From assembly GCF_900113245.1 (NCBI RefSeq), contig NZ_FOOQ01000002.1, forward strand, positions 310,001 through 374,000: DNA of 64,000 nt, in the 5' to 3' direction. The stretch is from Halopelagius inordinatus. Lineage in GTDB: Archaea > Halobacteriota > Halobacteria > Halobacteriales > Haloferacaceae. The notes under the pieces are model-generated. The model was not told the DNA's origin, searched no databases, and saw only the letters and a program-made list of their open reading frames with translations. Numbering within the stretch: position 1 is the stretch's first letter; each line of letters starts with the position of its first letter. A program made the translations under genes and the position numbers. Of this stretch, positions 53,866-64,000 are shown piece after piece.

Positions 53866-54360
53866 TCAGTTGTCCGGTGCCGTCCACTCGGACAGCGTCG
53901 CGGAGGTTTCCTCGTTCTCGGAAGTCCAAACGACGCGGAAGTCCTCGCCGTCGAGGTCTCCAGCGTTACCAGCGTACAGCGTACTACCTGCACTAACGGT
54001 GTCGTCAGCACCGTATGCGTCAGAGTCGACAAACGATCGAGACGTCGCCTTGTCAGAACCATTCCCAAGATCTGATTTATCGGTCGCAATGTCTACTTCA
54101 GCGCTTGACGTCAGGTTCAAGCGATCTGCAGCAATCGAATCACCAGTTTCGTGGGTGATGGTGACGTTGTCGTTGGTGTCCCCGTTTTCGAAGTCGAATC
54201 CGAAGGAAGCCTGCGGACTCGTCTGCGAGAGGTTCCCGCCGAGGTTGAGGACGAACGTACCGATGACCGCCGCGAGGATGACCGTGATGGCCACCATGAG
54301 GATGACACCGATAACCGGCGAAACGGCATTGTCGTCGGTAATTAGCTGTTTGAGTTTCAT
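53866..54360 (-). CDS. Type IV pilin (archaeal, class III signal) copy A
   Basis: This 164-residue protein has the archaeal pilin signal [20 protein letters not shown] and the hydrophobic core [20 protein letters not shown]; prepilin peptidase would cut before AVSPVIG. The acidic outer domain has N-glycosylation sequons (NLT). It is a paralogue of the neighbouring gene 54364-54783: identical spans [24 protein letters not shown]. The two are 3 bp apart, so one mRNA. Confidence 0.88.
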
Positions 54361-54363
54361 CGC

Positions 54364-54783
54364 TTAATTGTTAGGTGCAGTCGTTTTACTGAGCGTTGCA
54401 GACGACTCTCCGGTTTCTGACGACCAGACGACACGGATTGTCTCACCGTCCCAGTTGTCTACGTCCTTATATTTGGTAATCGAGGTTCCTGCACTAACAG
54501 TTCCAGTCCAGTTTCCACCACTTCCATCCCAGGTGACACCCGTAGTATTCAACTGGTCCCCAGGAATCGAGTCGCCCGTTTCGTGGGTGATCGTCGTGCC
54601 ATTCGTCGAGTCAAATTCGAACCCGAAACTCGCCTGCGGGCTCGTATCCGAGAGGTTTCCACCGAGGTTCAGTACGAATGTGCCGATAACGGCTGCCAGT
54701 ATGACCGTGATAGCCACCATCAGGATGACCCCGATGACAGGGCTAACGGCCGAATCGTCCGTGAATAGCTGTTTGAGCTTCAT
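54364..54783 (-). CDS. Type IV pilin (archaeal, class III signal) copy B
   Basis: This 139-residue pilin is nearly identical to the neighbouring copy in its first 60 residues ([20 protein letters not shown] ... [10 protein letters not shown]) but has a different, shorter outer domain ([20 protein letters not shown]), so the exposed part has diverged while the assembly part is fixed. A frame extension upstream of 54783 lacks pilin sequence. A TATA-like tttatat lies on the minus strand near 54909-54915. Confidence 0.88.
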
Positions 54784-55406: not shown

Positions 55407-55430
55407 GCGCAGACGAGTGCAGTTCTGTTG

Positions 55431-55549
55431 TACCCCTGCCCATGGTGACATCCGCGAGTAACTCCCTCCGAGTCCGATAAGTCGGGCGCCGTGTGGGAAT
55501 CCAGGCTGGACGAAAGCAGGTGTTGCCGACAGAGAAAAACCCCCTAACT
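55431..55549 (+). promoter_or_regulatory. Conserved 5' leader of S-layer gene 1
   Basis: This roughly 119-nt leader is similar to the leader of the second S-layer gene (62276-62387, minus). Shared blocks, in order, are TACCCCT, GGTGACATC, CGAGTA, AGTCCGA, GTCGGGCG, CGAAAG and TGTTGCCGAC, then ATGACAAGCAA at the start codon. The promoters upstream do not align, so the conservation starts at about the transcription start. The leader also holds a 12-codon upstream frame (ATG 55442 to TAA 55480). Confidence 0.62.
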
Positions 55550-58423
55550 ATGACAAGCAAGAAAAAGCAGTTCCGCGCGATATTCCTCGCGGCGCTGATG
55601 GTGCTCTCCGTCTTTGCGGGCACCGTCGCGCTCTCGGGATCCGCAGCGGCTGTTAGTGGTGCTTCCGTCGATACGTTCTCCCCTACGGAGCTCGACGAAG
55701 ATACCACTAACACGCATAACGTGAACGTATCGTTCTCCGACTATAATAACGCCAGTACCGACGACAACATCACCGTCTCGATTCCTGACCTCGAGGGCCT
55801 CTCGCTCAGCGGAGAGAACCTCCGCGTCGAGAACTCCTCTGGCGGTGCCATCACTAACTCCACGACGCTCGTGGACACGAACGACGACGGAGACAACGAC
55901 GCGCTGAACGTCACCGTCTCTCCCACGGGCTCCGAGATGCCCGTCACCGGTGCTGAGACAATCTACCTGAACGGTACCTTCGACGTTGACACGCCGTCGG
56001 TTAACACGAACACCGACGCCACAGTCACGTTCGACATCGAGGACGACAGTGGTACTGGTGACGCAACGGCATCCGCGTCGCAGCCCGTCAGTATCACCAA
56101 CGCGGACGCCAGCGCAACTGGCGCACCGAGCCTCGTGTCGGCAACTCACTACGACACCAACGCTGACAGCGGCGTCCAGAGCACCGTCGTGGAAGTTGCA
56201 TTTAACGAAGAGATGCAGAACGTCGACGACATGTCGCTGTACGTCGACGACGAGGCTGTGGATCTCGGCGCGGGAGCGTTCTCGCAGCCGAGTGACGGCC
56301 GCGTCATCATCGACACCGGGAGCGACCTGAACACGGGCGACGTCACGCTCAACGTTCCCGATTCGGTTACCGATACCGACGATAACAGCGTCCGAAGCAA
56401 CAGTCTCGACGACGACAACAACGTCAGTGTCACCGTCGCGACTGTCTCGATCGACAGCGACACCGGTATGAGTAACCCGGTCAACACCTACCAAGGTGAG
56501 AACGTCGCAGTGCTCGGTTCCGGTCTCGACACGGACGTCGAAGTCGAAGGCGACGACTCGAACTACGCCTTCTCCGGTTCCACTGGCACGAACAGCCAAG
56601 TCTTCGTGTTCAACACGACGAACCGAGAGATCGACCAGTACAACTTCTCGATCGGTCAGGCGAGCCCGAACGCGGCAATCGACGTCCGTGACCTCGGCTT
56701 CAACATGACCATCGACGACCTCAACGTCACCGACGAGGACTCCATCGAGGGTGAGGTTACCGCCAACGCTGGTAACCGACCCATCGAACTGACTCTCGTC
56801 GACGACGACGATGACGACGTCGAGACGATCGGTGCCACCCTGGACGGCCAGGGTGAGTACGACTTCGAGTTCGACCTCGAAGAGCTCGACGTCGACACGG
56901 GCGAATACACGATCGAAGCGCGCGACAACAACTCCGGCGTCACCGACACCTCCTCGACGATCAACGTCGCGGAAGCCGGTGAAGGCACGGCTAACTTCGA
57001 GAGCAGCATCGTCACCGAAGCGCGCGGTGACGTTGTCGAGATGAACATCACGATGGAGAACACCGACACCGCGACGGTGACCATCGGTAGCGACGACGTC
57101 GGCTTCCTCGCCGACGCGACCGTCCAAGACGACGACGACGACGGTGTCGTCACGCTCCAGTTCAACACGTGGGAAGCGCAGGACGGCGCTGACGGCGACG
57201 CCTTCTCCGTCGAGAGCGACGACGACGAGCTCGAAAGCTCCAACATCGAGATCGGCGTCAACTCGCTCCTCGACGCGGGCGACTACGACCTGGAAGTCCG
57301 CTCCGGCACCAACGCCGACGACGACTCCCAGAACGTCGCGACGCTCGTCCTCGAAGAGCGCGAGACGCGCAGCCTCAACACGTGGACTGCCTCGCAGGGT
57401 GCCGACCTCGGCGACAAAGAAGAAGTCTACGAGGCGGCTCAGAACGGGAACCTGACGGTAACTCAGGACATCGCCTTCGGTGACCGCGTCGTTCAGCAGG
57501 TGAACGCATCCGGTCTCGCAGGCCCCCTCGAAGCGCAGGACAACGACGAGGTTGCCAGCCAGCTCTTCGCTGCTGACAACATCAACTACACGGTCGAACA
57601 GACCGAAGCAGGCACGAACCGCGATCCGTTCGCGCTCCGACTGAACGACAGTAACACGGACGTCATCGCAGACGCGGAGAACGACACGTACTTCGTCGTC
57701 TACGAACCGAGCGACGTCCAAGCGTACGTGGACGACAACGAGAACGGCGAGTTCGACGATGGTGAAGACATCGTCACTAACCGTCTCGACGACGAGGAAG
57801 CCCTCACGGGCAACTTCACGGTCCTCGAGGACGACGGTAACCTCGCAGACGAAGACCAGACGGTCGAGTCTGACTACGAGTTCAGCACGGCTGAACACGA
57901 CATGGACGAACCCGTCGAGGTGGCGGCCGCAGAGAACCAGACGATAGAGGGCACGACTACCGTCGCGCCCGGTACGGAACTCCAGATTCGTGTCCGCAGT
58001 GACGATGGCACGAGTCCGAGCTTCCTGAAGACGTCGACCGTCTACGTCACCGAGAACAGAACGTACGACGCGCAGTTCGACTTCAGCGAGCAGAACGTCA
58101 ACGACAGCTTCACGGTCACCGTCTCCGGTGGCCCGTCCGAGGCCGACTCTCTGGAAGCCGACGGTAGCGTCGTCGAAGGCGGCGAGAACCAGACCGAAAC
58201 CGGCACCGCTGGTACGGAGACCGAGACCACGGTGACCGAGACCACCACCGAGGGTGGCGAAACCACGACGGCCGCAACCACCGAGGGTGGCGAAACCACG
58301 ACGGCCGAGGCTGGAACTGACGGCACCGGCGAAGAAACGGGCACCGGTACGCCCGGCTTCGGCGTGGTCGTCGCACTCGTCGCACTCCTCGCTGCGGCAC
58401 TCCTCGCAGTCCGCCGCGACTAA
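55550..58423 (+). CDS. csg: S-layer glycoprotein 1 (PGF-CTERM)
   Basis: This 957-residue acidic protein has a signal MTSKKKQFRAIFLAALMVLS (cleavage near 34), many N-x-S/T sites, an N-terminal domain of about 150 residues that the second copy lacks, Ig-like repeats, a Thr/Glu-rich stalk near 880-932 (O-glycan type), and the PGF-CTERM end TPGFGVVVALVALLAAALLA then RRD, the target of archaeosortase A. It is the main cell-wall building block. The ATG at 55550 gives the signal; an earlier in-frame start at 55493 does not. A terminator follows. Confidence 0.93.
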   Translation: MTSKKKQFRAIFLAALMVLSVFAGTVALSGSAAAVSGASVDTFSPTELDEDTTNTHNVNVSFSDYNNASTDDNITVSIPDLEGLSLSGENLRVENSSGGAITNSTTLVDTNDDGDNDALNVTVSPTGSEMPVTGAETIYLNGTFDVDTPSVNTNTDATVTFDIEDDSGTGDATASASQPVSITNADASATGAPSLVSATHYDTNADSGVQSTVVEVAFNEEMQNVDDMSLYVDDEAVDLGAGAFSQPSDGRVIIDTGSDLNTGDVTLNVPDSVTDTDDNSVRSNSLDDDNNVSVTVATVSIDSDTGMSNPVNTYQGENVAVLGSGLDTDVEVEGDDSNYAFSGSTGTNSQVFVFNTTNREIDQYNFSIGQASPNAAIDVRDLGFNMTIDDLNVTDEDSIEGEVTANAGNRPIELTLVDDDDDDVETIGATLDGQGEYDFEFDLEELDVDTGEYTIEARDNNSGVTDTSSTINVAEAGEGTANFESSIVTEARGDVVEMNITMENTDTATVTIGSDDVGFLADATVQDDDDDGVVTLQFNTWEAQDGADGDAFSVESDDDELESSNIEIGVNSLLDAGDYDLEVRSGTNADDDSQNVATLVLEERETRSLNTWTASQGADLGDKEEVYEAAQNGNLTVTQDIAFGDRVVQQVNASGLAGPLEAQDNDEVASQLFAADNINYTVEQTEAGTNRDPFALRLNDSNTDVIADAENDTYFVVYEPSDVQAYVDDNENGEFDDGEDIVTNRLDDEEALTGNFTVLEDDGNLADEDQTVESDYEFSTAEHDMDEPVEVAAAENQTIEGTTTVAPGTELQIRVRSDDGTSPSFLKTSTVYVTENRTYDAQFDFSEQNVNDSFTVTVSGGPSEADSLEADGSVVEGGENQTETGTAGTETETTVTETTTEGGETTTAATTEGGETTTAEAGTDGTGEETGTGTPGFGVVVALVALLAAALLAVRRD
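57311..57361 (+). repeat. 51-bp block identical with S-layer gene 2
   Basis: These 51 bases are identical to the reverse complement of 60902-60952. The block encodes NADDDSQNVATLVLEER. Exact identity at synonymous sites over this length points to recent gene conversion or duplication. Confidence 0.75.
58016..58058 (+). repeat. 43-bp block identical with S-layer gene 2
   Basis: These 43 bases are identical to the reverse complement of 60256-60298. The block encodes PSFLKTSTVYVTEN in both proteins. Confidence 0.75.
58244..58309 (+). repeat. 33-bp tandem repeat in the S-layer stalk
   Basis: Two 33-bp units start at 58244 and 58277, with the first 30 positions identical. They encode the TTEGGETTTAA-type repeat in the Thr-rich stalk. 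Slippage could lengthen or shorten the stalk. Confidence 0.75.
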
Positions 58424-58436
58424 CGACAGCTAACCA

Positions 58437-58473
58437 CCGGAGTTCGCTCCGGCCCTTCGAATTTCTTTCTTTC
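58437..58473 (+). terminator. Hairpin plus T-rich tract after S-layer gene 1
   Basis: CCGGAG-TTCG-CTCCGG is a 6-bp stem with a stable TTCG loop at 58437-58452, followed by a T-rich tract (tttctttcttt, 58462-58472). It lies 14 bp after the stop and is a convincing terminator for a highly expressed gene. Confidence 0.7.
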
Positions 58474-59112
58474 GGCACTCGACCCGGTAGTGACGGCGGT
58501 TCTCTCTGAGTGGAGGACGGACACTCTCACACCGAACGCCGAATCGGCGACTCACCCGCGTCACCGGAGGGACCCGCCTGCGTCGCAGCGAACGCGTTGT
58601 AGACACTCGACGGAGGTACAGCGGAGAGAGACGACGCGCGACTCGGAACTCACGTCGTCGAAAGTTGACTCTCCGAACGAGGGAACGACGCTGTCCGTCG
58701 GCCCGCCCTCGGAGACGGCCGGTGTCGGTACCTCAGTGAAGCGGGTCACAGAGGTGGTGCTGACGACGCAGCCGGTATCCCGCGTCGTCCACCCGAGAGG
58801 CACTCAAAGAGAGAGTGTGCTCTGAGGAGAGTGTGGCCGACATCCACCTCGGGCGAGGATTCCGTGAGGAATAGTGGGGCTACGCGTTTCCTCTGACCCA
58901 TACGAAGTATCTGAAGCCACTGATGCTCCCTAGGTGACCGAAGACGGTGCTTTCCAGCGCGTACAGCCCTTCCAACGGCACGTCCTCGGATATACACCGG
59001 AACATCGACCCGTCTCTGGTGCGAACGAGACACGGATCATCTCGCCGACGTCATCGGACGTCCCTAAACGGGATTCGAGAACTCACGCACCTGCATCGGG
59101 GGCGTCCGACCC
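58474..59112. other. Region between S-layer gene 1 and the unknown gene
   Basis: No firm gene is seen. The minus-strand frame 58561-58803 (80 codons from GTG, ...SVVPSFGESTFDDVSSES...) has GC-rich third positions and Cys residues near its end, so it could be a small gene or a gene remnant. The rest shows no coherent frame. Confidence 0.4.
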
Positions 59113-59796
59113 TCAGGGGCTTCCGACGTCGTTTTGGCCCGAGGAGCGGGCACCACCACGATAGGCGATGTCGCTCTCTTTCCTGAGAGCGATAGAACGA
59201 TTCGTCGGCGTCACTCCGCACGCGAAACCGGGTGATTCGTCGAAGTACGCGAATATCCACTTGACGTCCCCCGCCGCCTCCTCGGGTAAGTCCGCCAACG
59301 TGCACATCGCAGGCAGACTCTCGTAGAGCTGTTCCGGTGAGATGCCCGTCAGTTTCGAGCTTCCCGACCCGCCGACGGAGTAGCGTCTGCTCGGGGCGTT
59401 CTCGTACTTCCCTTTGGCTAGTATCCAGCAGACGTTCTCCTGCGGGCGGTCTTCTCGGACGGTGTAGACGCCAGGTTCGATCCTCCGGCGGCCGAACGCG
59501 TGGAGAATCCAATCGTATATCGCTCGCGGTACGCTCTGTCGAACGCTGTTCGTCTTCGAGAAATCGATCTGCTCGAGCAGTGTTCGGTTCTTCTCTACGA
59601 AGAGCGTCGCGGCCGCCCTCTCGTCGCCCGCCAGATACGAGACGGAGACGAACCGTCCCCCCGAGTTCGAGCGCGTCGTATTCCCCGAACCGGTCACCGT
59701 GATACGCCGAATATCTCGTCGCTCTTCGAGCGAAAGGTCCGCCTTGTGAATCCCGGTTTCGGGGCCTCGCTTCAGCAGTTCGTACGATTCTGTCAT
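59113..59796 (-). CDS. Unknown protein between the two S-layer genes
   Basis: This 227-residue soluble protein starts MTESYELLKRGPETGIHKAD and has LSLEERRDIRRITVTGSGNT, VSYLAGDERAAATLFVEKNR, LLEQIDFSKTNSVRQSVPRA and three Cys in its C-terminal part. There is no signal peptide or membrane span. I do not recognise a family. It sits alone between converging S-layer genes, read on the same strand as copy 2. The codon pattern is normal for the window, so it is probably real. Confidence 0.7.
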   Translation of the reverse strand: MTESYELLKRGPETGIHKADLSLEERRDIRRITVTGSGNTTRSNSGGRFVSVSYLAGDERAAATLFVEKNRTLLEQIDFSKTNSVRQSVPRAIYDWILHAFGRRRIEPGVYTVREDRPQENVCWILAKGKYENAPSRRYSVGGSGSSKLTGISPEQLYESLPAMCTLADLPEEAAGDVKWIFAYFDESPGFACGVTPTNRSIALRKESDIAYRGGARSSGQNDVGSP

Positions 59797-59878
59797 GGGC
59801 GTCTGGTAACCGTCGTGTGGTACGATCGAAACACGGCTGCGTGATCGAGTACGGAAATAGGGGAACCGAAAGGCCGAG

Positions 59879-59895
59879 CGGAGGGAGACCCTCCG
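59879..59895 (-). terminator. Hairpin after S-layer gene 2
   Basis: CGGAGGG-AGA-CCCTCCG is a 7-bp stem with a 3-nt loop, 13 bp past the stop of copy 2 on the minus strand. Only short T-runs follow, so the terminator role is likely but less clear than for copy 1. Confidence 0.5.
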
Positions 59896-59908
59896 AAATC
59901 TCGGGTAG

Positions 59909-62275
59909 TTAGTCGCGGCGGACAGCGAGGAGCGCCGCGGCGAGAAGTGCCGTCAGAGCGACGACCACGCCGAATCCGGGCGTGCTCGTCTCAGTCGGCT
60001 CTTCGGTCGCGGGCTCTTCGGTGGCCGGGGCTTCGGTCGTTTCCGGAGCCTCGGTCGTGTCCGGCGCGTCCGTCGTGACGGGCTCGTCGGTGACCGTCGC
60101 CGTGCCGTCGTCGGTCACGGTTTCGGTCGTGCTGGAGCCTTCGGCGACGGTGCCGTCGACTTCCTCACGGGGTGCTGCACTGCTGCCCGTGACGCGGATG
60201 TTGTACTCGTCACCGGGGTTCTGCTCGCTGAAGTCGAACTCAGCGGAGAACGTGTTGTTCTCGGTGACGTAGACGGTCGACGTCTTCAGGAAGCTCGGGC
60301 TGGTGCCGTCGGCGCTGCGGACGCGGATCTGCAGTTCCGTACCCGGAGCGACGTTGGAGTCACCTTCGACGATCTGACCCGCAGCGTTCGAGACGTTGTA
60401 CGGGTCGTCGAGGCTGTGTTCGCCCTCGATGAGGTCGAAGTCGGTCGTCGTGCTCTCTTCGCTGTCAGAGAGGTTGCCGTCCGCCTCTTCGACGGTGAAG
60501 TTGGCCGTGATGCCGTCGTCAGCACCGAAGTCGACCGAGTTGCCACCGCGGAGTGCGGCGAGGTCGCTGTCGTCGGAGTCGAACACGATGAAGTACGTGT
60601 CGTTCTCAGAGTCGCCGACAACTGCCGCGTTGTCGCTCACGTTGAGCGAGTACGCTTCGCGGTTCGCCGGTGCGGTGGTCTGGTTGAACGTGAGGTTGAA
60701 CTCTTCGTTACCGAAGAACTGTTCGCGGGACTCGTAGATACCGCCGAGACCCGAGGCGGTGACCTGCGTGATGACGTAGTCACCGTGCGCGATGTCGCTG
60801 TCCTGCGTGAGGTTACCGCTCTCGAGCGCCTCGTTCACTTCGTCGAGGTCGCTGAGGTCGGTGTCGTCGGACGCGGTCCACATCTGGACCGACTCCGTGT
60901 TGCGCTCTTCGAGGACGAGCGTCGCGACGTTCTGGGAGTCGTCGTCGGCGTTCTGCGTGGCGCGGACTTCCAGGTCGTAGTCGCCCGCGTCGAGGAGCGT
61001 CGAGACCTGGTTGTTCGCGTCGATGTCGGACTTGACGATCGAGTCGTCGCTGTCGTCGACATCGAAGACGTCGGCCGTAGCGGACGTTCCGCCGGCGACG
61101 TTGATCGCTTCCCACGTGTTGAAGAGAATGACGACTTCGCCGTCGTCGTTCTCGTCTTCGACGGTCACGTTAGCGAGGAAGCCGACGTCCTCGCTGCCGA
61201 TGTTGACCGTCGCGTAGTCGCTGTTCGAGACGGTGACCGGAATCTCGACGACGTCACCGCGCGCTTCGGTGATGACGGAGCTTCCGAAGTTCGCATCCCC
61301 GTCCTGAGCGTCGTCGACGTTGACCGTCGACGATTCGACGCTCACACCGGAGTCGAGGTCGGTCACCTTGACCGTGTACTCGCCGGTGTCGTCGGAGGAG
61401 AACTCCGAGCTGTCGAACGTGAAGTCGTACTCACCCTGGCCGTCGAGGCTGGGGTTGGAGATGTTGACGAACTCGTCTTCGTCGCTGTCGAGGAGCTGGA
61501 TCGAGAGATCACGGTTGCCCGCGTTGGCGGACGCCGTGCCCTCGAGGGCGTCGTCGGTCGTGATGTTCTGGTCGTCGAGTTCGACGTTCAGACCCAGGTC
61601 GCGAACGGTGAGCGTCGCGTTCTGGCTCTGGTTGTTGTCGAAGACGAACTCGTAGTCTCCGAGGTCGCGGTTCTCCGTGTTGAACACGAACACCGTACTG
61701 TTGGTGCCGGTGGAACCACTGAAGGAGTACGTCGCGTCGTCGTCGGTGGCTTCGACGTCTATCGATTCGCTGAGGTTGTTAGCCTCGACGGCGACGTACG
61801 AGCCCTTGTAGGCGTTCTTCGTGTCGCCCTGGCCGAGCGTGACGGACGCGAAGACGACGCTCTTGTCGCCCGCGTTCGCGAGCGTGGCACCGTTTTCGGC
61901 GTCCTGAATGTTGCCGGAGAGATCGATTTCGATGTCCTCGGACTTGATCGCGGACGAAGTCTCGATGACGACGCGGCCGTCATCATCTTGGGAAATACCA
62001 TTCCAGACGTCAGCCGTGACGTTGTCACCATCGTCGAGGATGGTGAAGTTCGCCTGCGTCAGGCTGGAGGAGTTGATCTGTTCGTCGAACGGTACTTCGA
62101 TGACGGTGTCACCATTACTATCTTCGTAGTGAACCGCACCGCCCGCGTAGTTGGGGGCGGTTCCGTCGGGTGCAGCTGCGGACGCTCCCGTGAACGCGAC
62201 GGTGCCTGCAAAGACGGACAGGACCATCAGCGCCGCGAGGGCGACTGCGCGGATCTGCTTTTGTTTGCTTGTCAT
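59909..62275 (-). CDS. S-layer glycoprotein 2 (PGF-CTERM), inverted paralogue
   Basis: This 788-residue paralogue of the 55550-58423 gene has a nearly identical signal (MTSKQKQIRAVALAALMVLS), the same domain order from SATHY/GAVHYED on, shared GSTGTNS.VFVFNT, NAGNR, LDGQGEYDF, ITEARGDVVE, DVGFLA, LLDAGDYDLEVR and SFLKTSTVYVTEN, an Asp/Glu/Thr-Pro stalk and PGF-CTERM end TPGFGVVVALTALLAAALLA. It lacks the first extra domain of copy 1. Exact DNA blocks are shared with copy 1. The ATG at 62275 is fixed by the leader conservation. Confidence 0.92.
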   Translation of the reverse strand: MTSKQKQIRAVALAALMVLSVFAGTVAFTGASAAAPDGTAPNYAGGAVHYEDSNGDTVIEVPFDEQINSSSLTQANFTILDDGDNVTADVWNGISQDDDGRVVIETSSAIKSEDIEIDLSGNIQDAENGATLANAGDKSVVFASVTLGQGDTKNAYKGSYVAVEANNLSESIDVEATDDDATYSFSGSTGTNSTVFVFNTENRDLGDYEFVFDNNQSQNATLTVRDLGLNVELDDQNITTDDALEGTASANAGNRDLSIQLLDSDEDEFVNISNPSLDGQGEYDFTFDSSEFSSDDTGEYTVKVTDLDSGVSVESSTVNVDDAQDGDANFGSSVITEARGDVVEIPVTVSNSDYATVNIGSEDVGFLANVTVEDENDDGEVVILFNTWEAINVAGGTSATADVFDVDDSDDSIVKSDIDANNQVSTLLDAGDYDLEVRATQNADDDSQNVATLVLEERNTESVQMWTASDDTDLSDLDEVNEALESGNLTQDSDIAHGDYVITQVTASGLGGIYESREQFFGNEEFNLTFNQTTAPANREAYSLNVSDNAAVVGDSENDTYFIVFDSDDSDLAALRGGNSVDFGADDGITANFTVEEADGNLSDSEESTTTDFDLIEGEHSLDDPYNVSNAAGQIVEGDSNVAPGTELQIRVRSADGTSPSFLKTSTVYVTENNTFSAEFDFSEQNPGDEYNIRVTGSSAAPREEVDGTVAEGSSTTETVTDDGTATVTDEPVTTDAPDTTEAPETTEAPATEEPATEEPTETSTPGFGVVVALTALLAAALLAVRRD
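60256..60298 (-). repeat. 43-bp block identical with S-layer gene 1
   Basis: The inverted partner of 58016-58058. Together with the block at 60902 it defines inverted homology around the central segment. Confidence 0.75.
60902..60952 (-). repeat. 51-bp block identical with S-layer gene 1
   Basis: The inverted partner of 57311-57361, identical over 51 bases. Confidence 0.75.
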
Positions 62276-62387
62276 GTTGGGTAGGTCGCAAGTCGGCAAC
62301 AGCATCTTTCGGTCGCCCTAGGGTCTGAACGCCCGACGTTCGGACTTGGACGACGGTACTCGGTGATGTCACCTTTGGGTAGGGGTA
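62276..62387 (-). promoter_or_regulatory. Conserved 5' leader of S-layer gene 2
   Basis: This roughly 112-nt minus-strand leader matches the leader of copy 1 in ordered blocks (TACCCCT, GGTGACATC, CGAGTA, AGTCCGA, GTCGGGCG, CGAAAG, TGTTGCCGAC). A TATA-like catttaatg on the minus strand, around plus 62408-62416, lies about 25 bp upstream of its start. The upstream short frame seen in copy 1 has no stop here. Confidence 0.6.
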
Positions 62388-62502
62388 GCCGAACAGCGGC
62401 GACGGTACATTAAATGTTTTGTGTATCTCTGCCCAAATTGACAGTGAAAAGTAATGATGGGGTGAGCTCCTCTTATCGCCCCGATCCGCTGAGTTGAGAA
62501 GC

Positions 62503-62570
62503 TCTCGGGCCACTTCCGAGTGTGCGAGGCAGCACGAGGCGGGAAAACGCCTCGTAACAGCGGGGTGCCA
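62503..62570. ncRNA. Hairpin-rich stretch, possible structured RNA
   Basis: Consecutive stems are CTCGG/CCGAG with a 7-nt loop near 62504-62520, and the perfect 8-bp ACGAGGCG/CGCCTCGT with a 6-nt loop (62534-62555), then a weak GC stem. No terminator-like T-run follows. It lies in an otherwise AT-rich gap between divergent genes. No known RNA family is recognised; it may also be a DNA site. Confidence 0.25.
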
Positions 62571-62698
62571 TTCTAAACATTAGATTAGTCGCGTGCGGGC
62601 GTCTATCTATCCGGTCCTATCACCGGGACCAGTAATATTACGAATAAGTATAATAGGGCCGAAAAATTGTTCAATCAATTTACCATCCACTTAGAACA

Positions 62699-62708
62699 AG
62701 ATATATGC
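62699..62708 (+). promoter_or_regulatory. TATA box of the amidase gene
   Basis: gatatatgca is centred about 30 bp before the ATG at 62735, fitting a leaderless or near-leaderless haloarchaeal transcript. Confidence 0.5.
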
Positions 62709-62734
62709 ACGATTTGGCATCTATTTAGTCTCAA

Positions 62735-64000
62735 ATGTCAGATAGATGTAGAACGAGCGAGAGGAGTTCACAGTCGGGGTCTCTTCCGATCGACCGCCGG
62801 TCTCTGTTGAAAGGAATCGGTGCCGCGGGGCTGATTGGAGCGGGGACGGCGACCGCCAGCGCGGGCGATTCCGGAACCTCCGGGTCCGACGGCGGATTCA
62901 CCGCGGTCGAGGCGACCGCTTCGGACGTCCTCGACGCGATCGAGAGCGGGGAGGCGACGGCCGAATCGATCGTCGAGCAGTACCTAGAGCGGATCGAGGT
63001 CTACGACGAGGCGCTCGACGCGATTATCACCGTGAATCCCGACGCGGTCGAACGCGCCGAAGAGCTCGATGCGAAATACGAGGATTCGGGGGCCGTCGGT
63101 CCGCTACACGGCGTCCCGGTCGTCCTGAAGGACAACTACGATACCGGTGACATGCCGACGACCAACGGCTCGCTCTCGATGAAGGAGTCTCAGCCGCCGG
63201 ACGACGGGTTCCTCGTCCAACAGCTCCGTGAAGCGGGCGGCGTCGTCGTCGCCAAAGCCAACCTCGACGAGTTCGCCCGCGGGATAGAGGGCAGTAGCTC
63301 GTACGGGGGCCAGACGCGCAACGCCTACGCGCTCGGTCGCAATCCGAGCGGTTCCAGCGCCGGGACCGGAGCCTCGATCGCGGCGAGTCTCGGGGTGATC
63401 GGTACCGGCTCGGACACCTGCGGATCGATTCGCAACCCGTCGGCGTTCGGAAGCCTGGTCGGCATCCGACCGACGCTCGGGCTACTGAGCCGCGATGGTA
63501 TCGTCCCGTTGAACTTAGAGCGAGACACGGGTGGTCCGATGTGCCGGACGGTTCACGATGCGGCGCTCGCGTTGGACGTGATGGCTGGGTACGATCCGAA
63601 CGACCCGATCACGGCCCGCGGAGCGGACGAAATCCCGGCCGAAGACGACCAGACGCCCGAAGACAGCTACACCGAGTACCTCGACGAGGACGGACCCGAC
63701 GGGGTACGAGTCGGCGTTCTCCGCGATTTCTTCGGGCCCGAAGAGGAGATTCTCGAAGGAGACGAAGGAGACGAAGAAGACGAGTACGACCTGACCGTAG
63801 CGGAAGCCAAAGCGGAGGCGGTGCAGGTGACCGCCGTCATCGAGACCGCGCTCCACGATATGAGCTCCGAGGGAGCGGAGATCGTCGAGTTAGACACCGT
63901 TCCGAACCTCGACGAACTCCTCGAAGAGGCCGACTCGCCCGATCCGTTCAAACAGGATCTCAACGCCTACCTCGAAGACGTCGACAACGAGTACGACACG
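62735..64000 (+). CDS. Secreted amidase (amidase-signature family), 3' end beyond window
   Basis: ATG at 62735 is open to the last base (422 codons). A Tat signal (IDRRSLLKGIGAAGLIGAGT) is followed by a Gly/Ser linker. The amidase-signature triad is in view: Lys in PVVLKDNYD, cis-Ser in GRNPSGSSAGTGAS and the nucleophile Ser in SDTCGSIRNPSAF. These Ser-Ser-Lys hydrolases cleave amide bonds; the substrate is unknown. A Glu/Asp-rich insert (EGDEGDEEDEYD) follows the core. Codons such as GAT and CTA and GATC-rich stretches set it apart from the core genes. Confidence 0.9.
   Translation, partial: MSDRCRTSERSSQSGSLPIDRRSLLKGIGAAGLIGAGTATASAGDSGTSGSDGGFTAVEATASDVLDAIESGEATAESIVEQYLERIEVYDEALDAIITVNPDAVERAEELDAKYEDSGAVGPLHGVPVVLKDNYDTGDMPTTNGSLSMKESQPPDDGFLVQQLREAGGVVVAKANLDEFARGIEGSSSYGGQTRNAYALGRNPSGSSAGTGASIAASLGVIGTGSDTCGSIRNPSAFGSLVGIRPTLGLLSRDGIVPLNLERDTGGPMCRTVHDAALALDVMAGYDPNDPITARGADEIPAEDDQTPEDSYTEYLDEDGPDGVRVGVLRDFFGPEEEILEGDEGDEEDEYDLTVAEAKAEAVQVTAVIETALHDMSSEGAEIVELDTVPNLDELLEEADSPDPFKQDLNAYLEDVDNEYDT

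Follow-up and report, generated by a model that had tools for sequence, protein, structure and literature searches.

Near its end, the DNA analysed here (the window, 64,000 nucleotides of Halopelagius inordinatus, contig NZ_FOOQ01000002.1, positions 310,001 to 374,000 of assembly GCF_900113245.1) carries two convergent S-layer glycoprotein genes which share exact stretches of DNA in inverted orientation. Haloarchaeal tailed viruses use the S-layer as their receptor, and the loss of one S-layer gene is survived by strains that have two. Is the pair a device that re-sorts two surface proteins by inversion, or do the shared stretches record exchange of another kind? Our analysis favours the second answer: the locus probably belongs to a multigene family of S-layer genes that is dispersed and recombining, with ectopic gene conversion.

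Two types of S-layer gene side by side

According to profile searches, copy 1 (55550-58423, plus strand, 957 aa; TIGR04207, NF045517 and TIGR04126 of NCBIfam) and copy 2 (59909-62275, minus strand, 788 aa) each possess the haloarchaeal S-layer signal peptide (halo_sig_pep), the BGTF surface domain and the PGF-CTERM anchor, all with scores above the curated cut-offs. The two inverted, converging S-layer genes of the preliminary description are therefore confirmed. The NF041335 equivalog, with a cut-off of at least 1100 bits, was matched over nearly the whole length of both copies at only 646 and 632 bits, indicating that they are homologous to the ArtA-dependent S-layer glycoproteins of NF041335 and lie outside the equivalog group. 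No match was obtained to PF00395 (bacterial SLH), which is not applicable here, in a PDB sequence search with copy 1, or in an Rfam search of 54.9-62.7 kb.

The two copies can be aligned with each other from about residue 193 of copy 1 onward, as far as the C-terminus, at 51% aa and 65% nt identity, in good agreement with the shared order previously placed at about residue 190. The preceding region of copy 1 (about residues 36-192; approximately 55655-56125, plus strand) has no counterpart in copy 2 when aligned in 40-codon windows, and it is hypervariable, with 30-38% aa identity to the congener orthologue (g1c1) as against 61-95% in later windows. It was first seen as an extra domain of copy 1 alone, which is correct with respect to copy 2 but not to the two remaining paralogues or the two genes of the congener; these have N-terminal extensions of their own, different in sequence, and copy 2 is the short one.

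The Halopelagius inordinatus genome contains four S-layer genes and the congener (G001) two. Copy 3 is carried by contig C10, which is 27.4 kb long, and copy 4 is found on contig C1, close to artA-dph5. The canonical haloarchaeal S-layer loci are S-layer-artA-dph5 and akr-pilin-pilin-S-layer, and the latter is marked in the window by two type IV pilin genes (53866-54783, minus strand; Pilin_N / pilin N-terminal domain); the same order is found in Halogeometricum limi (L056). By synteny with the congener (G001:C1 700852-703680), copy 1 is a core gene of the pilin-locus type, and it is 71% identical to the congener pilin-side gene. Copy 2, of a type designated B, shows 59-62% identity with copies 3 and 4 and the congener artA-side gene, and 51% with copy 1. 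These values indicate that copies 1 and 2 represent two paralogue types placed side by side, and not a recent inverted duplication.

Some features of the two loci were noted in passing. The adjacent pilin genes contain 173-bp stretches that are 79% identical. The artA gene of this genome (G000 C1, about 804.7-816 kb, compared with G001 C2, about 872-882 kb) lacks the usual upstream S-layer gene; copy 4 lies beyond dph5, next to a tyrosine recombinase (L032:9398-10513).

The segment carrying copy 2 and its companion gene

We propose that the pilin locus has copy 1 as its resident S-layer gene, and that copy 2 would be a second-type paralogue placed beside it, inverted, together with a companion gene. 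The latter, referred to here as gene X (59113-59796, minus strand), lies between the two copies and encodes a cytosolic-looking protein of 227 aa with no library family above cut-off. Copy 2 and X are part of a 6.1-kb segment (58506-64000, on to about 64595) that the congener lacks at this locus, where the blastn alignment stops at C2:368506 and resumes at C2:374595. The segment was either gained here or lost in the congener. It also includes a Tat-signal amidase-like gene, running from 62735 to about 64498. A tRNA att-site was considered for the segment and rejected, as the window contains no tRNA and the segment ends show no attachment site and no direct repeat longer than 10 bp.

Gene X was found in 10 of the 148 genomes searched within the family. 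When 392 genomes of the order were searched with a profile, about 22 strong matches were returned plus weak ones, the latter mostly confined to the C-terminal half of X and located in DUF7528-like proteins. The C-terminal part of X (about residues 137-210) is weakly similar to the haloarchaeal DUF7528 (PF24372), which was matched by two of the ten members of the X alignment (A2; best E 0.0015), the X of the window not being one of them; the extra N-terminal domain and the strict S-layer-gene neighbourhood are features of X itself. A single-sequence fold prediction was uninformative (pLDDT 33). When the surroundings of the strong profile matches were inspected, 26 of the 27 haloarchaeal copies, two of them broken, had an S-layer gene no more than 1.5 kb away, and 12 lay between two such genes. 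In the exception (L126) the distance is 2.5 kb, and a further X fragment (L139) has no S-layer neighbour. X is thus a new, undescribed companion gene; it represents a small protein family that lacks annotation and has an S-layer gene as its only constant neighbour, be it on chromosomes, on a plasmid-like contig or beside provirus genes. Since the order and orientation of X and the S-layer genes vary, they do not form a simple operon.

The companionship has a history in genus g46, in which X is kept in four of 32 genomes. Most of the tandem S-layer pairs without X have X remnants between the genes, near full-length but frame-broken in L148 and L149; these decayed remnants indicate that X is ancestral in g46 and being lost. 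For this genus, a recent insertion of X between S-layer genes was accordingly rejected as a candidate. Across the tandem spacers L148-L159, X is intact in three, frame-broken in two and reduced to short remnants in most others.

Copy 2 and X might have arrived together as a plasmid- or provirus-borne mobile cassette, with X belonging to the element and the host S-layer locus serving as its landing site. Contig C10, which is plasmid- or virus-like (L043, L031, L044), carries a full S-layer gene (copy 3) and X together with a P4-type primase-helicase, ParA, a tape-measure protein and a TnpB-like ORF, the primase-helicase sharing 50% identity, over half of its length, with the one on the Haloquadratum plasmid NC_008213. 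In genome G073 (L087:5690-16502), X and an S-layer gene adjoin provirus tail and tape-measure genes (phrog_1533, E 8e-103); integrases occur near L085 and L092; and the congener pilin locus, lacking copy 2, has neither X nor an X remnant. However, X or its remnants are located between tandem S-layer genes in almost all g46 species with such a pair, looking ancestral and decaying, and the ends of the 6.1-kb segment bear none of the repeats or attachment sites sought above. Searches with the type-B S-layer alignment found nothing in phage records and IMG/VR and only distant homologues in plasmid records, and X was absent from phage, plasmid and IMG/VR collections. We regard arrival by such a cassette as possible rather than probable; because it concerns the origin of copy 2, it is compatible with later gene conversion. 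G073 has a second S-layer gene with X elsewhere (L088), 88% identical at the aa level.

As to the role of X, that it regulates S-layer expression is a guess; more broadly, we suggest tentatively that X may act inside the cell on how the adjacent S-layer genes are expressed or which of them is chosen. A bolder and rather improbable reading is that X would define an ancient S-layer-X-S-layer locus and control coat-gene use or pair recombination, while plasmids and proviruses would carry an S-layer and X module that gives the host a new surface and keeps out competing viruses. If coat choice or exchange is under the control of X, a single gene deletion makes the surface variation of haloarchaea testable.

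Probable gene conversion between the two copies

Whatever the origin of copy 2, its later exchange with copy 1 is supported by the DNA that they share. The 51-bp and 43-bp blocks described earlier as identical, synonymous positions included, were recovered, and exact inverted blocks of 38 and 24 bp were found in addition. The 38-bp and 51-bp blocks (57264-57301 and 57311-57361 in copy 1; 60962-60999 and 60902-60952 in copy 2) fall in a candidate conversion tract at 57149-57361 on the plus strand of copy 1 and 60902-61135 on the minus strand of copy 2, and an independent repeat search reported a 104-nt inverted pair (91%) at 57264-57367 / 60896-60999. The 43-bp block, which codes PSFLKTSTVYVTEN, is located at 58016-58058 (plus strand) and, by the alignment, at 60256-60298 (minus strand).

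Within the candidate tract, over alignment codons 569-650, 44 of 44 consecutive shared degenerate residues of the two copies use the same codon, compared with a mean of 73% (p<1/3000 against permuted codons; permutation tests ignore local differences in codon usage and constraint). A GENECONV-like run test on polymorphic sites agrees (p<1/2000). Only over codons 600-640 is copy 2 nearer at the DNA level to copy 1 (74%) than the copy-1 orthologue is (69%). The preliminary description had allowed that the blocks might be explained by general conservation of the family, and the synonymous run speaks against this. Without any exchange, the blocks could still be conserved protein motifs under strong codon bias, and it is true that every pair has a high synonymous identity (0.64-0.76) and that strictly silent codons, taken over all six genes, give no significant run between copies 1 and 2. 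However, a run of the 44/44 kind is absent between copy 1 and any other gene, and the residues NADDDSQNVATLVLEER are common to copies 1 and 2 only; codon bias, already disfavoured, is therefore an improbable explanation. The shared blocks appear to exceed family conservation and to bear the signature of gene conversion. A second conversion, at the 43-bp patch of copy 2, is probable, because copy 2 reads STVYVTEN there, like the copy-1 type, where its own type has ASVDVTEN, ATTDVTEN or ATVHVTEN. Both the tract of about 210 bp and the 43-bp patch would have resulted from non-reciprocal ectopic gene conversion. Exact blocks as such are not special to this pair, because copy 2 shares longer ones with the unlinked copy 4 (60 and 59 bp) and one of 53 bp with copy 3.

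The inverted orientation, the exact blocks and the evidence of past exchange led to the earlier proposal of an invertible surface switch, in which recombination between the copies would flip the centre and swap the N- and C-terminal halves of the proteins. Local recombination between the two genes is upheld by the synonymous run; the half-swapping inversion is not. The central 58.4-59.9 kb, which was supposed to invert, is merely the space between the C-terminal ends and holds gene X; the segment inverted would depend on the crossover, being 57.3-61.0 kb at the 51-bp block and 58.0-60.3 kb at the 43-bp block. The congener has a collinear arrangement over this region. The present arrangement appears to be parental, since copy 1 tracks its orthologue, the only S-layer gene of the congener at this locus, over the whole aligned length, and copy 2 is type B at both ends and throughout, except in the codon range of the conversion tract. 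No chimeric copies were found in the one available congener, and no site-specific recombinase is evident among the ORFs listed at 50-64 kb around the S-layer genes, the ORFs at 59113-59796 and 62735-64498 being gene X and the amidase-like gene. Near-identical inverted repeats are also lacking, the arms being 74-91% identical with a longest exact run of 51 bp. The locus thus resembles the known phase-variable invertible surface loci in having inverted repeats around a surface-protein segment, but shows neither a recombinase nor long perfect repeats. With two parental genes and no recombinase or long identity, with other X-linked pairs mostly in direct orientation, which cannot invert, and with equally long blocks exchanged by unlinked copies, where local inversion is impossible, an inversion switch is very unlikely.

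Exchange among haloarchaeal S-layer genes

Gene conversion of this kind is apparently not restricted to the window. In Halogeometricum limi, the unlinked S-layer genes of the artA and pilin loci share exact blocks of 138-139 bp with significant silent runs (p=0.001). Among linked pairs, conversion-like patches of 531, 168 and 174 bp were found in L136, L129 and L060, respectively, and no significant run was found in L127, L137 and L086. The L136 pair (L136:6783-13110) consists of tandem genes with X between them, which are identical over 531 bp at the 3' end and 51-59% alike in their first thirds. In a tree of 81 S-layer genes (FastTree; built from recombining sequences, so that its topology is an average), genes from different loci group by genome or genus and not by locus; in Halogeometricum limi the artA-locus gene is grouped with the pilin-locus gene, and the same holds for the genus of the window. 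Tracts of excess synonymous identity and clustering by genome or genus over locus are the features of a recombining (concerted) multigene family. The data indicate that S-layer genes form such a family across haloarchaea, with C-terminal patches exchanged and the N-terminal part diverging, and the same conversion process may homogenise the paralogues while their N-terminal parts drift apart.

Several S-layer genes might be retained because viruses use S-layers as receptors and having alternative coats would protect the cell. Viruses are also a plausible driver of the N-terminal divergence, since published escape mutations of HFTV1 and HRTV-DL1 sit at residues 237-246 and 209-210, respectively, of the S-layer proteins of their hosts (PMC9973310, PMC10544981). 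The receptor S-layer gene of H. gibbonsii adjoins pilA3/pilA4 (PMC9973310), and in Halorubrum lacusprofundi escape mutations can strike either Hlac_2976 or Hlac_0412 (PMC10544981). Like these species, Halopelagius inordinatus has several divergent S-layer genes per genome, and copy 1 is also pilin-adjacent; it differs in that four copies are present, of which two are convergent neighbours separated by X and bearing probable conversion tracts. Haloquadratum walsbyi is comparable in another respect. The S-layer gene of its cell-wall genomic island 1 has been diversified through homologous recombination, with one event spanning about 250 bp within the gene (PMC4535781), and one strain has an N-terminal extension that another lacks, the two aligning from residue 193 onward (PMC3119063). 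A recombination-diversified S-layer gene with a variable N-terminal extension is common to both cases; there, however, the exchange is between strains, and here it would be between paralogues of one genome.

Upstream leader sequences

The GTACCCCTGCCC element is located at 55430-55441 (plus strand; 55428-55441 in a slightly wider delimitation), about 110 nt upstream of the copy-1 start, as part of a conserved S-layer leader, and the TACCCCTACC element is found at 62381-62390 (minus strand) upstream of copy 2. A leader of about 120 nt starting at TACCCCTACC is common to all six genes of the genus, the pilin-side type having one mismatch, and it follows that each copy appears to carry its own promoter and leader. 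The leader is widespread in haloarchaeal S-layer genes, and TACCCCTACC was present upstream of most of the S-layer genes fetched; the element and leader probably correspond to the 5' end of the S-layer mRNA. TACCCCTACC was rejected as an S-layer-only signal, with eight matches in the genome against one in the control. A slightly longer form of the element occurs at five other places in the genome.
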